Of a stretch of DNA of 64,000 bases, positions 21,394-48,300 are shown piece by piece. The notes below the pieces were generated by a model. The model saw only the letters and a program-made list of their open reading frames with translations. It searched no databases and was not told the origin of the DNA. The stretch comes from Brevundimonas sp. Root608 (GTDB taxonomy: Bacteria; Pseudomonadota; Alphaproteobacteria; Caulobacterales; Caulobacteraceae): NCBI RefSeq assembly GCF_001427825.1, contig NZ_LMGT01000001.1, positions 186,001-250,000 on the forward strand, written 5' to 3'. The translations under genes were made by a program, and so were the position numbers. Within the stretch, counting starts at the first letter, position 1, and every line of letters begins with the position of its first letter.

Positions 21394-21735
21394 CTAGTAG
21401 CGGCGCTGGCCGTTCTCCCAGTAGCATTCGTCCTGACGGCCGTCGTAGCAGTAGTAGTACCGGTTCGAGCTGTCCCGATAACGCTGCTGATTGGCGCGGT
21501 CCTGCTGCGAACCGCGGATGGCGCCCGCCGCGCCGCCGACGACGGCGCCGATGGCCGCGCCGGTCCCGGCGTTGCCGCTGCCGACGTTGTTGCCGATGAT
21601 GGCGCCGGCGACCGCGCCGAGGCCCGCGCCGATCGCGCCCTGACGGGTCGTCTCATTGACGCCGCCGTAGCCGTCGCTTGCGCAGGCGCTGGCCAGCAGG
21701 CCCGAAGCCGCGATCGCGATGATTGCCTTGTTCAT
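21394..21735 (-). CDS. Glycine-zipper lipoprotein (YMGG/17-kDa antigen type)
   Basis: 113 residues: signal peptide with lipobox LLASAC (Cys about 18), then a glycine-zipper segment GAIGAGLGAVAGAIIGNNVG ... GAAIGAVVGGAAGAI, and a charged Tyr-rich tail (RYYYCYDGRQDECYW). These are outer-membrane or periplasmic proteins of unclear function, often stress-induced. An exact GGAAC-N16-CGTT motif at 21776-21800 points at this gene, so EcfG/SigT control is likely. Start 21735 chosen over 21750 because the signal peptide begins there. Confidence 0.88.
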   Translation of the reverse strand: MNKAIIAIAASGLLASACASDGYGGVNETTRQGAIGAGLGAVAGAIIGNNVGSGNAGTGAAIGAVVGGAAGAIRGSQQDRANQQRYRDSSNRYYYCYDGRQDECYWENGQRRY

Positions 21736-21775: not shown

Positions 21776-21800
21776 AACGCTGGATAAGCGTGGCGGTTCC
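21776..21800 (-). promoter_or_regulatory. EcfG/SigT-type promoter for the glycine-zipper lipoprotein
   Basis: On the minus strand GGAAC (21800-21796), 16-nt spacer, CGTT (21779-21776). This is the alphaproteobacterial general-stress sigma consensus. It lies about 40 nt before the start codon. Confidence 0.75.
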
Positions 21801-21894
21801 CCCGCTATGATGGGGGACGGGCCTGTGTCAGGTTCGGGCGGCGCCGCGCCAGACGCGGCGGCCGATGCTTCATGGGTAGAGACGGGGGTCTTGT

Positions 21895-22236
21895 ATGCGT
21901 TTTTCTGAACCGGTCCGCATGGCGGACGATGGCGAGCACAGTCCGGTGTGGGCGCGCTCGAAACGCCGCTCCGGCAATCCGCTTATCGGACTGATCGTGA
22001 CGCTGCTGGCGTTGTTCGGGGTGCTGACGGCGGTGCTCGGCGTCAAGGAGCGTTCGCTGGCCGAGGGCGGAGCCGTCATGGACGGCTGGATCGCCCAGGG
22101 CGTCGCCACGGTGAAGGGCAAGGCGCCCGAGGCCGCCGACCAGGCCGCCGACGCCACCGTAGCGGCCGCCGAAAAGGCGGGCGACGCCGCCCAGGCCGGC
22201 GCGGCGGCCGCTTCTGACGAGCTGAAGAAGCAATAG
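21895..22236 (+). CDS. Small single-span membrane protein with Ala/Lys/Glu-rich tail
   Basis: 113 residues: a polar N-terminus, one transmembrane helix (NPLIGLIVTLLALFGVLTAVLG, about 28-49), then a helical Ala-rich region (AADQAADATVAAAEKAGDAAQAGAAAASDELKK) likely to be periplasmic or coiled coil. No recognised family. Start by ATG at 21895 behind GGGGG; an alternative ATG at 21919 would shorten it by eight residues. It lies directly before the lipid-kinase operon, whose promoter starts 22 bp after its stop. Confidence 0.7.
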   Translation: MRFSEPVRMADDGEHSPVWARSKRRSGNPLIGLIVTLLALFGVLTAVLGVKERSLAEGGAVMDGWIAQGVATVKGKAPEAADQAADATVAAAEKAGDAAQAGAAAASDELKKQ

Positions 22237-22258
22237 CTTCACCGGGGGCGAAGGCGCC

Positions 22259-22283
22259 GGAACATCGCCCTCACCGGGGCGTT
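22259..22283 (+). promoter_or_regulatory. EcfG/SigT-type promoter for the lipid kinase operon
   Basis: GGAAC (22259-22263), 16-nt spacer, CGTT (22280-22283). The start codon at 22292 is only 9 nt after the -10 element, so the transcript would be leaderless or nearly so; no SD is visible. Confidence 0.75.
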
Positions 22284-22291
22284 CGGGCGGC

Positions 22292-23263
22292 ATGACTGAA
22301 AGCCTGACCCCGACCGTTGATCCGACGGCCGCGCCTGAAGACGCGGCCGTCGAACCACGCGTGCTGACACCCCACACAGTGCTGGGGCGGGTCATCATGC
22401 TGGTCAATCCCGCCGCGGGCGGCGTCGGCTCCGGCGCGGTCGGGGAGGCGGAAGCCATTCTGGCCGACTACGCCTGCGACGCGTCTGTCGTCTCCCTGGA
22501 GTCCGGCGCGTTCGACTCCCAGGTCCAGGCGGCGCTGGACGCGCGGCCGGACGTGCTGTTCGTCCTGGCGGGAGACGGCACCGCCGGGACCATCGCCTCG
22601 CGCGCGGGGCCGGACGGCCCCCTGATCGCGCCCTTGCCGGGCGGGACGATGAACATGCTGCCCAAGGCGCTGTACGGGACCGCTGACTGGAAGGCGGCCC
22701 TCCGGCTGGCGCTCGAGGAAGGCGCGCCGCAGTGCGTCGCCGGCGGCGAGGTTTCCGACGGCCGGACGACCCAGGCCTTCTATTGCGCCGCCATTCTCGG
22801 ATCGCCGGCCCTGTGGGCTCCGGCGCGCGAGGCCGTCCGCGACGGCCAGATGCGTCTGGCGTGGATGTACGCCCGCCGCGCGCTGCGCCGCGCCTTCTCG
22901 GGCCGGCTTCGCTACTCTCTCGACGGCAAGGTCGCCCGGCGGGCCGAAGCCCTGGTCCTGATCAGTCCGATGATCTCCCGGGCGATGGACGAGAACACCG
23001 GTCTCGAAGCCGCGGCGATGAATCCGTCGGACGCCGCCCAGGCCTTTCGCCTGGCCGCCCACGCCGTGTTCAGCGACTGGCGTCAGGACCCGGCGGTGAC
23101 CACCCGGGCGATCCAGCGCGCCACCGTCCGCGCGCGTTCGCGCATTCCCGCCGTGATCGACGGCGAACCCATCCTGCTGTCCCACGAGGCCAGGGTGAAA
23201 TTCATCCGCAAGGCGTTTCAGGCGCTGGCTCCCAATCCCCCCGCGGCCGAGGATAGCGTCTAG
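22292..23263 (+). CDS. Diacylglycerol kinase-family lipid kinase
   Basis: 323 residues. The DAGK catalytic fold is shown by VIMLVNPAAGG, LAGDGTAGTIAS (nucleotide-binding GDGT) and PLPGGTMNMLPKAL. Enzymes of this type phosphorylate lipids such as diacylglycerol or sphingoid bases at the inner membrane face; the exact substrate is not readable. GDGTAG lacks the common N of GGDGT(I/V)NE. The stop shares one base with the GTG start of the phosphoesterase, so the two are co-expressed, probably from the stress promoter just upstream. Confidence 0.85.
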   Translation: MTESLTPTVDPTAAPEDAAVEPRVLTPHTVLGRVIMLVNPAAGGVGSGAVGEAEAILADYACDASVVSLESGAFDSQVQAALDARPDVLFVLAGDGTAGTIASRAGPDGPLIAPLPGGTMNMLPKALYGTADWKAALRLALEEGAPQCVAGGEVSDGRTTQAFYCAAILGSPALWAPAREAVRDGQMRLAWMYARRALRRAFSGRLRYSLDGKVARRAEALVLISPMISRAMDENTGLEAAAMNPSDAAQAFRLAAHAVFSDWRQDPAVTTRAIQRATVRARSRIPAVIDGEPILLSHEARVKFIRKAFQALAPNPPAAEDSV

Positions 23264-24114
23264 TGGGGCGGATTCTCCAGTTCTCGGACATCCATTTCGG
23301 CGTGGAGCACAAGCATGCCTGCGCCGCCGCGCTGGAATATGCGCACGCCAATTCCCCCGACCTGGTCCTGATCACCGGCGACATCACCCAGCAGGGTTTC
23401 CCCGACGAGTTCGAGGCCGCGGGCCGCTGGATCAATCAGATGCCAGACCCGCAGTTCGTAATCGTCGGCAACCACGACGTCCCCTACTGGAGCCTTTTCG
23501 CCCGCCTGTTCTACCCGTGGAAGGCGTTCGAGAAGGCCACGGGCCATCCGGCCCACGACCACCAGTTCCTCAGTCCCACGGTGATGGTGCGGGGCGTGGT
23601 GACCGCGCGCGGCTGGCAGGCCCGGACCAACTGGTCCAAGGGGGTGATCGACCTGATGCAGACGCGCAAGGCGGCCGAGGCCCTGCGTCAGGCGCCGGTG
23701 GGCGCACTGCGCGTCCTCGCCTGCCACCACCCCCTCGTCGAAATGATCGGCACGCCGATGACCGGCGACGTCAAACGCGGCGACCGCGCCGCCCAGATCT
23801 TCGCCGAGGCCGGGGTCGACATCATCGCCACCGGCCACGTTCATGTGCCCTTCGCCCTGCCGATCAGTCTGGGCGACCACTGCTCCTACGCTGTCGGCTG
23901 CGGGACGCTGTCACATCGCGAGCGGGGCGCGCCGCCCAGCTTCAACCAGATCGAATGGGACGCGGACCACATCACGGTGACCGCTGTCGGCTGGGACGGC
24001 CAGCGGTTCGAACCGAGCCAGACCTGGAAGCTTCCGCGCCGTCAGGACACCCTCAGGACGGCCACGGCGCCCAACCCGAACGTCGCGGGCGCAAAGGAAA
24101 AGGCCGCGGTCTGA
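23263..24114 (+). CDS. Calcineurin-like metallophosphoesterase
   Basis: 283 residues with the di-metal phosphoesterase motifs in order: DIHFG, GDITQQG, GNHD, ACHHP and TGHVHVP. Resembles the Icc/CpdA group (cyclic nucleotide or lipid phosphate hydrolases). Starts with GTG overlapping the kinase stop (TAGTG), giving tight coupling with a lipid kinase, which makes a lipid-phosphate substrate plausible but unproven. The last codons lie inside a terminator hairpin of the opposite strand. Confidence 0.9.
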   Translation: MGRILQFSDIHFGVEHKHACAAALEYAHANSPDLVLITGDITQQGFPDEFEAAGRWINQMPDPQFVIVGNHDVPYWSLFARLFYPWKAFEKATGHPAHDHQFLSPTVMVRGVVTARGWQARTNWSKGVIDLMQTRKAAEALRQAPVGALRVLACHHPLVEMIGTPMTGDVKRGDRAAQIFAEAGVDIIATGHVHVPFALPISLGDHCSYAVGCGTLSHRERGAPPSFNQIEWDADHITVTAVGWDGQRFEPSQTWKLPRRQDTLRTATAPNPNVAGAKEKAAV

Positions 24115-24126
24115 GCGACCGCGGCC
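24098..24126 (-). terminator. Terminator of the DUF1328 gene overlapping the phosphoesterase stop
   Basis: On the minus strand GGCCGCGGTC-GCTCA-GACCGCGGCC is followed by TTTTCCTTT. The plus-strand stop codon of the phosphoesterase (24112-24114) lies in the loop. Confidence 0.8.
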
Positions 24127-24155
24127 TCGTCCGTCTGTCCGGGGTTTGAGCCGGT

Positions 24156-24320
24156 CTAGATCCGGCGTCCCCTGCCCGTGACGAAATGCACGATCAGCAG
24201 GATGATGAAGACGACGAACAGCACATAGGCGATGTTCATCGACAGACCGGCCACGCCCCCGGCGCCGAGGGCGCCGGCGACCAGCGCCAGAACGAGAAAG
24301 ATGAGAGCCCAACGAAGCAT
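24156..24320 (-). CDS. DUF1328-family small membrane protein (YtjA-like)
   Basis: 54 residues, two transmembrane helices ([22 protein letters not shown] and [24 protein letters not shown]). The start MLRWA and the end FVTGRG are the family's hallmark. Function unknown, but often part of stress regulons. It has its own exact GGAAC-N16-CGTT promoter at 24379-24403 and a strong terminator at 24098-24126. Confidence 0.92.
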
Positions 24321-24378
24321 CAGCGGTTCCTCCAGAGCGGTTGATCCAAGGAGCGACAACCGCCGCGCCTGACGGACC

Positions 24379-24403
24379 AACGTTCCGGAACCGGCGCCGT
24401 TCC
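24379..24403 (-). promoter_or_regulatory. EcfG/SigT-type promoter for the DUF1328 gene
   Basis: Minus strand GGAAC (24403-24399), 16-nt spacer, CGTT (24382-24379), in the gap between the holin-like gene and DUF1328. The leader would be about 50 nt. Confidence 0.78.
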
Positions 24404-24406
24404 GAT

Positions 24407-24811
24407 TCAGCGCCGACGTGACCGGTGCGGCTTTTCGGTGAAGGCGGCCGCGACCATGGTGGCGAGGGCCGGATTCCTGAGGAAGATCCATCCGCCGGCC
24501 AGGGCCGCCACCGTGCCCAGGATGGGGCGTTGGCGGAACAGGCTGTAGGCGCGGGCGCCCAGACCGGAGGGTTCGTCTTCAAAGTCCTCCTCGGTCTCTG
24601 ACCGGTTCACCAGGACCAGGGCGACGACGATGGCGACGATCGCGAACAGAAGGAAGGTGGTCGCCGCGGCGGCCAGCGGCACGAGCACCAGCAGCAGGGC
24701 GAAGAAGATCGTCGCCCCCAGCGCCATGACCGCCACCAGGGCGGCCCCCGCCACGACCGAAGCCGCGACGGCTTTCTTGACCAGACCCCTGGCCAGCCCC
24801 CCGCCGAACAT
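24407..24811 (-). CDS. Holin-superfamily-like membrane protein (hypothetical)
   Basis: 134 residues: two strong membrane helices (about 15-37 and 40-68) and a third hydrophobic stretch ([26 protein letters not shown]), with an acidic linker [13 protein letters not shown]. The layout resembles 'phage holin family' proteins that accompany DUF883 genes in alphaproteobacteria; there is no sign of a phage. Its start shares one base with the stop of the DUF883 gene, so they form an operon, presumably under the promoter at 25245-25269. Confidence 0.8.
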
Positions 24812-25191
24812 CAGCGGCGACGACCGGCGAGCAGCAGGCCGAGCACGACGCCGACGCCGAGCGCGATGGCGGTCGACTGCACGGGGCGCTCCTGGACCCG
24901 CTCGGTGATGTAGCGCTGGGCTTCGTCCAGACGCTCCTGCGCCTCGTCATAGTATTCCTGGCCGCGCACGCGGGCGGTGTCGTAATAGCCGCGGGCCCGC
25001 TCGCGCATGACCTCGGACTGTTCACGCAGGCGGGCTTCGGCCTCGGCGGCCTTGGCGCGCACGCGCGTTTCCGCGGTCGCCGCCTTCTCGCGCAGACGCG
25101 CCTTTTCCTCGGCGCCGAGGACCTTCAGGTCGTCCTTCAGGGTGTTGAGGTCGTTCTTTACGGCAGCTCGTGCCGCCTTGGTCGTGGCCAT
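24811..25191 (-). CDS. DUF883-family (ElaB/YqjD-like) membrane-anchored protein
   Basis: 126 residues. A long charged helix rich in Ala/Arg/Glu (about 10-95, probably coiled coil) is followed by PVQSTAIALGVGVVLGLLLAGRRR, the C-terminal anchor typical of the family. E. coli YqjD and ElaB are inner-membrane, ribosome-binding, stationary-phase proteins, but ribosome binding here is only an analogy. The ATG at 25191 is chosen over 25212. Exact stress promoter 55 nt upstream. Confidence 0.9.
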   Translation of the reverse strand: MATTKAARAAVKNDLNTLKDDLKVLGAEEKARLREKAATAETRVRAKAAEAEARLREQSEVMRERARGYYDTARVRGQEYYDEAQERLDEAQRYITERVQERPVQSTAIALGVGVVLGLLLAGRRR

Positions 25192-25244
25192 GATGCGCGC
25201 TCCGGTGTTCAAGCTTGGCTGTTAAATAGAGAATTCAGAGCGGA

Positions 25245-25269
25245 AACGCCACCGCGCGGCGCCGGTTCC
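25245..25269 (-). promoter_or_regulatory. EcfG/SigT-type promoter for the DUF883-holin operon
   Basis: Minus strand GGAAC (25269-25265), 16-nt spacer, CGTT (25248-25245). Confidence 0.78.
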
Positions 25270-46641: not shown

Positions 46642-48300
46642 TTACGAGCGCAGGCCGGTGATCGTGCGGTTGGGCGCGATATCCTCGGCCGAGGTGATCA
46701 GGTGAACGAGGGCGGGGCGGCCGGCGTTCCGCGCCGCGGCCAGGGCGGCGGGGAAGTCTTCGGTCCGCTCGCAGCGGACGCCGAAGGCGCCGAAGGCCTC
46801 GGCGTATTTGACGAAATCGGGGTTCCTCAGATCGGTGGCAATGACCCGGTCGGGGCCCGGATAGTGGCCTTCCTGGTGCATGCGGATAGTGCCGTAGGTG
46901 CCGTTGTCGACGACCACGACCACGACGTTGATGCCGTACTGGACCGCCGTGGCGATCTCCTGGCCGGTCATCAGGTAGTCGCCGTCGCCGGCGATGCAGA
47001 CGACGTCGCGGTCGGGATGCACGCTCTTGGCCGCGATGGCGGCGGGATAGCCGTAGCCCATGGCGCCGGATGTCGGGGCCAGCTGGGTGCGGCAGGCGCG
47101 GTGGCGATAGAAGCGGTGCAGCCAGGCGGCGAAATTGCCCGCGCCGTTGGTGACGATGGCGGTCGGCGGCAGGCTCTCGCCGAGATGGGCCATGCATTCG
47201 CTCATGTTCACCGCCCCGGTCACGGGCACGGGCGTCGAGAAGGCCTGATAGTCGGCGTGCGCGGCGGCGGCCTCGTCATGCCAGGTCCGGCCCGGATCGA
47301 TGGCCGAGAGCGCTAGGGCGGCCAGGGAATTGTCGGCGGTGGCGCTCATCAGCGGGGTCCAGACCCGGCCCAGCTCCTCCGCGCCGGGATGGATGTGAAC
47401 CAGGGTCTCGGCCGTCCGGGCGCGGTCGAACAGGGTGTAGCCCTGCGTCGGATTCTCGCCCAGCCGGGCGCCGATGGCGACGACGAGGTCGGCGGCCTTC
47501 GCCCGGGCCGTCAGCTTCGGATTGCAGCCGAGGCCCAGGTCGCCGGCGTAGTTGGGCCGGTCGTTGGACAGGATGTCCTTGCGCCGGAAGGACAGGCTGA
47601 CGGGGAGGCCCAGCCGTTCGGCCCAGTCGCCGATGGCGGCGGCGGCTTCCTCGCTCCAGCCCGAGCCGCCCAGCACCAGCAGCGGGCGTTCCGCCTTGGC
47701 CAGACGGGCGCGGACCTGTTCGACGAAGGCCGGATCCAGCGCCGCCTGCGCGGGCGTGACCGGCCGGATCGGCGCCGGCCCCCCGTCGGCGTGCAGGATG
47801 TCTTCGGGCAGGGCGATGACCACCGGCCCCATCCGCCCCTGAAGCGCGGTGGCGAAAGCGCGCTCGACCACCTCGACGGTGCGTTCCGGGCTCTCGATCT
47901 CGGTCGCCCATTTGGCCAGGCCGCCGAACACCTCGCGGTAGTCGACCTCCTGGAAGGCGCCGCGGCCCCGGTCGGTGAGGGCGATCTGGCCGACGAACAG
48001 GAGCATCGGCGTGGAGTCCTGGTGCGCCGTGTGCACCCCGATCGAGGCGTGGGTGGCGCCGGGCCCCCGCGTGACCATGCAGACGCCGGGCCTGCCGGTC
48101 AGTTTGCCCCAGGCCTCGGCCATGTTGGCGGCCCCCGCCTCATGCCGGCAGGCGATCACCTGGATCCTGTCCCGCACGTCCGCCAGCGCGTCCAGCACGG
48201 CCAGATAGCTCTCGCCCGGGACGCAGAAGACGCGGTCGATCCCGTTCATGACGAGGGTTTCGACAAGGCGGCGGGCGGCGGTGTTCGCGGGCTGGGTCAT
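46642..48300 (-). CDS. Thiamine pyrophosphate-dependent enzyme (acetolactate synthase-like)
   Basis: 552 residues with the three-domain TPP-enzyme layout: an N-terminal Pyr domain with the catalytic Glu in CRHEAGAANMAEAW, a central Rossmann domain, and a C-terminal PP domain with GDGDYLMTGQEIATAVQYGINVVVVVVDNGTYGT. It resembles orphan acetolactate synthase large-subunit homologues; no regulatory subunit or other ilv gene is adjacent, so the reaction could be a different carboligation or decarboxylation. The ATG at 48300 fits the family; the longer frame overlaps a lipoprotein gene. Confidence 0.9.
   Translation of the reverse strand: MTQPANTAARRLVETLVMNGIDRVFCVPGESYLAVLDALADVRDRIQVIACRHEAGAANMAEAWGKLTGRPGVCMVTRGPGATHASIGVHTAHQDSTPMLLFVGQIALTDRGRGAFQEVDYREVFGGLAKWATEIESPERTVEVVERAFATALQGRMGPVVIALPEDILHADGGPAPIRPVTPAQAALDPAFVEQVRARLAKAERPLLVLGGSGWSEEAAAAIGDWAERLGLPVSLSFRRKDILSNDRPNYAGDLGLGCNPKLTARAKAADLVVAIGARLGENPTQGYTLFDRARTAETLVHIHPGAEELGRVWTPLMSATADNSLAALALSAIDPGRTWHDEAAAAHADYQAFSTPVPVTGAVNMSECMAHLGESLPPTAIVTNGAGNFAAWLHRFYRHRACRTQLAPTSGAMGYGYPAAIAAKSVHPDRDVVCIAGDGDYLMTGQEIATAVQYGINVVVVVVDNGTYGTIRMHQEGHYPGPDRVIATDLRNPDFVKYAEAFGAFGVRCERTEDFPAALAAARNAGRPALVHLITSAEDIAPNRTITGLRS

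Follow-up and report, generated by a model that had tools for sequence, protein, structure and literature searches.

Four closely spaced sites in the window (the whole 64,000-nt stretch of DNA analysed here) are, judging from their sequence and conservation, very probably promoters of EcfG (SigT), the alphaproteobacterial general stress sigma factor. The findings are real and add new predicted targets to a known regulon. This extension of a known stress response is mostly expected, the unexpected part being a conserved and probably leaderless operon coding for a putative lipid kinase and a phosphoesterase. With it, the predicted Caulobacteraceae general stress regulon gains a conserved lipid kinase-phosphoesterase pair. 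A preliminary description of the same DNA had proposed a local general-stress (EcfG/SigT) regulon. The fixed 8–9 nt geometry of the kinase promoter and the link of the locus to phyR-nepR-ecfG are additions to that description.

Putative EcfG promoters in the window

A GGAAC box and a CGTT box with a 16-nt spacer between them were counted as an EcfG/SigT promoter, a spacer of 17 nt being tolerated. The SigT/EcfG consensus in the literature is GGAAC-N16-CGTT (PMC4287350, PMC7083833, PMC3892343). The window contains four exact N16 matches, all of them inside positions 21776–25269, a span of 3.5 kb. Widening the spacing to 15–18 nt yields one extra match (46705–46730, N17). Dinucleotide-shuffled versions of the window contain 0.34 N16 matches on average and no more than 2 in any of 100 shuffles; four were never reached. 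This agrees with the earlier estimate of fewer than one chance match per window.

All four sites are intergenic and oriented toward their genes. The first (21776–21800, minus strand) precedes the gene of a glycine-zipper lipoprotein (21394–21735, minus strand; Pfam PF13441/PF13488), whose ATG at 21735 lies 40 nt beyond the CGTT box. The second (22259–22283, plus strand) is followed after 8 nt by the ATG (22292) of the lipid kinase gene (22292–23263, plus strand), assigned to DAGK_cat and the DgkB/YegS/sphingosine-kinase fold by profile and predicted structure. The second gene of this operon codes for a calcineurin-like phosphoesterase (23263–24114, plus strand; Metallophos profile). The third site (24379–24403, minus strand) lies 58 nt before the ATG (24320) of a gene for a DUF1328 small membrane protein (24156–24320, minus strand; PF07043). 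The fourth (25245–25269, minus strand) lies 53 nt before the ATG (25191) of a DUF883 gene with a C-terminal glycine zipper (24811–25191, minus strand; PF19029, DUF883_C). A 134-aa gene (24407–24811, minus strand) is located directly 3' of the DUF883 gene. Because this order is kept in orthologous loci and the 134-aa gene has no site of its own, the two are probably co-transcribed. The preliminary description had named the same four sites and strands, their intergenic position and orientation and the same gene families, all of which are confirmed here, the latter by Pfam (Gly-zipper, DAGK_cat, Metallophos, DUF1328 and DUF883_C). Its close spacing to start codons also stands, whereas the figures (9–55 nt) do not, as counting on the sequence gives 8, 40, 53 and 58 nt.

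The lipoprotein and kinase genes are separated by a 113-aa gene (21895–22236, plus strand) whose product has a single predicted membrane stretch and which is without an exact EcfG site in the window. We considered the lipoprotein site as a bidirectional promoter also driving this gene, but the idea is not supported. On the opposite strand the site reads AGAAC-N16-GGTT, with two mismatches, and in orthologues these persist, as CGTT is mostly followed by CT and GGAAC by C. In two orthologous loci, an exact EcfG site precedes the counterpart of the 113-aa gene, matched by position and layout (L108:3558–3582 and L109:3370–3395). For this reason, the 113-aa gene is probably a stress target as well.

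Conservation in orthologous loci

We collected 80 orthologous loci from Brevundimonas and relatives, the window being included in all counts. The nearest relatives of the kinase come from Brevundimonas (best 86% identity), followed by other Caulobacteraceae. Aside from the loss of single genes here and there, these loci largely retain the arrangement lipoprotein, (113-aa gene), kinase, phosphoesterase, DUF1328, 134-aa gene, DUF883. A site is present before the orthologous lipoprotein gene in 72 of 76 regions, before the kinase in 76 of 79, before DUF1328 in 39 of 41 and before DUF883 in all 54. The spacer is mostly 16 nt, and 17 nt in a few cases. In the same loci, the two boxes at 14 other spacings gave practically no matches and the reversed motif gave none. 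The OmpA, phosphoesterase and 134-aa genes, siteless in the window, have no own-strand site in the orthologues either. Relatedness among the loci means that the counts cannot be treated as independent; nonetheless, spacers and flanks vary widely. Per-column information content is circular for both boxes, the sites having been picked as exact matches, and was not counted as evidence. Loss of the motif upstream of orthologues had been named in the preliminary description as an outcome that would speak against it; at least 95% of the regions keep the site, for each gene. Since the sites are kept before the same genes in orthologous loci, the EcfG reading is strongly supported.

The same data bear on chance matches in G+C-rich DNA. 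A pattern search of the whole genome, as the preliminary description had suggested, found 32 exact GGAAC-N16-CGTT sites, including those before phyR and nepR-ecfG, versus 15 for the reversed control pattern. Because of these numbers a single match in the genome proves little, about 15 being expected by chance. Four matches within 3.5 kb are nevertheless extreme, the shuffled expectation being 0.34 per window, and the orthologous regions keep them before the same genes. A chance origin is rejected by this conservation test and can be virtually dismissed.

Regulators and further sites in the genome

NepR is encoded in the same genome (E 1.8e-14), on contig C7, which differs from the contig of the window. 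Side by side with it are the genes for PhyR, an ECF sigma factor and a HisKA_2/HWE-type histidine kinase. By its position beside NepR and its similarity to counterparts near phyR in other genera, the sigma factor is identified as EcfG. Both phyR and nepR-ecfG have an exact site in front of them, and one more, located where the histidine kinase gene ends, stands before an entericidin-like gene. Elsewhere in the genome, many further sites are situated roughly 25–80 nt before predicted lipoprotein, glycine-zipper and outer-membrane-type genes, these gene types having been assigned by eye from signal sequences. The SigT regulon of Caulobacter crescentus contains phyR, a homologue of entericidin and numerous small or envelope proteins (PMC3073932). 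Its consensus is the same as here and its makeup resembles that of the genes behind the sites in this genome. The core motif is also shared with the EcfG regulons of Sphingomonas melonis Fr1 and Sphingopyxis granuli TFA. The general-stress reading of the preliminary description is thus supported by the conserved sites, by the presence of PhyR, NepR and EcfG in the genome and by the motif before their own genes.

A different ECF sigma factor that recognizes a similar -35 box might act on the sites instead. Besides EcfG, the genome codes for at least four other ECF-like sigma factors (29–35% identical to EcfG), and the AAC of the -35 box is common to many ECF promoters (PMC7083833). However, both boxes and the 16-nt spacing equal the published EcfG consensus, the motif stands before phyR and nepR-ecfG, and in other genera the cluster adjoins these very regulators. 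All this makes recognition by a different sigma factor highly improbable.

At two positions (G000:C10:69887–69913 and L093:3925–3951) the N16 motif overlaps itself on both strands (GGAACG...CGTTCC). The result is two exact EcfG sites that face opposite ways and are shifted by 2 nt against each other, a possible bidirectional promoter.

Proximity of regulators and predicted targets in related genera

In the genome of the window, the target cluster and the regulators are on separate contigs. The cluster has phyR nearby, mostly together with nepR-ecfG, in Caulobacter, Phenylobacterium and some further relatives. The phyR gene lies within about 2–3 kb of the kinase gene in eight loci (L101, L104–L108, L110 and L141), and ecfG is also beside the kinase locus in L101, L104, L105, L107, L108 (partly) and L110. 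Exact sites precede both phyR and nepR in L101, L108 and L110, and nepR in L104. In the remaining Brevundimonas loci, no regulator gene was detected in 4 kb of flanking sequence. The simplest reading of this distribution is that regulators and targets would have formed one ancestral stress island, since split in most of Brevundimonas. Regulators beside targets in several genera would place membrane and envelope functions closest to the core of the response.

Kinase and phosphoesterase

The kinase is the sole DAGK_cat match in this genome, with the PF00781 profile matching above the cut-off. By sequence comparison, no relative of the kinase was detected among solved structures. The predicted structure (mean pLDDT 87) matches DgkB (2qvl/2qv7), SphK1 and YegS at about 12–20% sequence identity. 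Both profile and predicted fold are therefore those of the DgkB/YegS/sphingosine kinase family, but all 32 aligned proteins carry AGDGT at the glycine-rich motif, where the family has GGDGT. Another invariant stretch in these 32 proteins is GGTMNMLPK. From its family membership, the protein is predicted to be a lipid kinase that phosphorylates a lipid. A related bacterium, C. crescentus, has a lipid kinase with a glycine-rich ATP motif, the ceramide kinase CpgB (PMC10331486). Compared by its published description, CpgB differs from the present kinase in having GGDG and forming a clade of its own (PMC10331486). The phosphoesterase is of the calcineurin type, and its invariant residues (among them D9, H11, D40, N70, H71, H155, H192 and H194) fit the known metal site of the superfamily.

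The 27 genes of the C. crescentus SigT carbon-starvation list (PMC3073932) include no named lipid kinase or phosphoesterase, many entries being unannotated. The main texts of the S. melonis Fr1 and S. granuli TFA regulon papers do not mention diacylglycerol or lipid kinases. More generally, a search of the article texts available in open access found no link between EcfG/PhyR and a diacylglycerol or lipid kinase.

Geometry of the putative kinase promoter

Between the CGTT box and the start codon of the kinase the distance is nearly constant: 8 nt in 68 of 76 loci and 9 nt in a further 6 (74 of 76 together). The leaders of the other three genes range over 30–64 nt (lipoprotein), 31–76 nt (DUF1328) and 43–82 nt (DUF883). 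The 8-nt gap is represented by 32 distinct 8-mers across the loci, which means that its length is kept while its sequence varies. The N-terminus of the kinase differs in length among orthologues, and in L034, L037 and L038 there is no alternative in-frame start before the conserved LTPH stretch. The longest Shine-Dalgarno match at the kinase is 0–4 nt: it does not exceed 3 nt in 69 of 76 loci, and 34 loci have no match of at least 3 nt. For the other three genes the match is mostly 4–5 nt. One SigT motif of C. crescentus is reported to lie at -34 relative to a mapped start (PMC4287350). If the first base of the motif is taken as the reference point, the +1 position would fall within one base of the kinase AUG; read literally, the figure would put it one base inside the AUG. 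In addition, 375 leaderless mRNAs are known in C. crescentus (PMC4117421), and, according to a table in PMC6599016, some EcfG sites of S. melonis lie just 2–10 nt ahead of the annotated coding sequence. From the fixed gap, the unclear Shine-Dalgarno sequence, the expected +1 at the AUG and the commonness of leaderless mRNAs in C. crescentus, we infer that the kinase-phosphoesterase mRNA is likely to be leaderless.

A family-wide search added 50 kinase loci. Eleven of them have an exact site at 8 or 9 nt (genera g3, g7, g9, g10, g11, g13 and g17). Five more (L158, L162, L164, L166 and L168, from g19 and g21) have GCAAC for GGAAC, exactly 8 nt from the ATG. The leaderless kinase mRNA is thus probably kept in about ten genera. 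It is not required everywhere, because kinase sites in genus g22 have leaders of about 13–67 nt and in L110, from a Caulobacter relative, the leader is 59 nt instead of 8–9 nt. In genus g6 the nearest site is often about 380–475 nt upstream of the kinase. Four kinase loci have a GTG start at 8 nt, with a downstream ATG possible there.

The leadered sites of g22 and L110 also lend some weight to another view, in which the EcfG promoters are real, the kinase is made from a leadered transcript and the short gap reflects some other constraint, such as overlap between promoter and coding sequence. The leadered transcript might come from another promoter or by read-through from the 113-aa gene, which has the same orientation and stops 22 nt short of the site. 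However, many loci (for example L045, L046 and L048) have no match to the 113-aa gene upstream and still have the 8-nt gap. The gap is held at 8 or 9 nt despite the diversity of its sequence and the changing length of the N-terminus, and no clear Shine-Dalgarno sequence is available for a leadered transcript. We therefore regard this view as unlikely.

Proposed mechanism and further observations

Upon stress, phosphorylated PhyR binds NepR, and EcfG is freed; these steps belong to the established PhyR-NepR-EcfG system and would apply to this organism as well. RNA polymerase with EcfG would then transcribe four units: the lipoprotein gene, the kinase-phosphoesterase operon, the DUF1328 gene and the DUF883 gene with the gene downstream of it. 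The kinase transcript would start at the AUG or one or two bases off and be translated leaderless, and the other three transcripts would have ordinary leaders with a Shine-Dalgarno sequence. A broader proposal can be made only tentatively and is rather doubtful as a whole. According to it, the Caulobacteraceae stress response ancestrally controls the kinase-phosphoesterase pair through a leaderless mRNA in which the start codon is locked to the promoter. This branch would then use leaderless translation and its neighbours ordinary initiation. If true, reversible membrane-lipid phosphorylation would be tied to the stress switch, with separate translational control.

Three minor observations concern sites of this kind. 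The -10 box of the kinase promoter (window 22280–22285) is nearly always followed by CG (CGTTCG in 59 of 67 distinct sequences), a feature not shared by the sites of the other three genes. In L097 (3915–3960) the ATG 8 nt after the kinase site is out of frame with the kinase, a possible frameshift or assembly error. Finally, in L021 (G000:C7:29710–29734) another site of this genome lies 9 nt before the ATG of a 414-aa frame, which is possibly a second leaderless stress mRNA or a chance arrangement.
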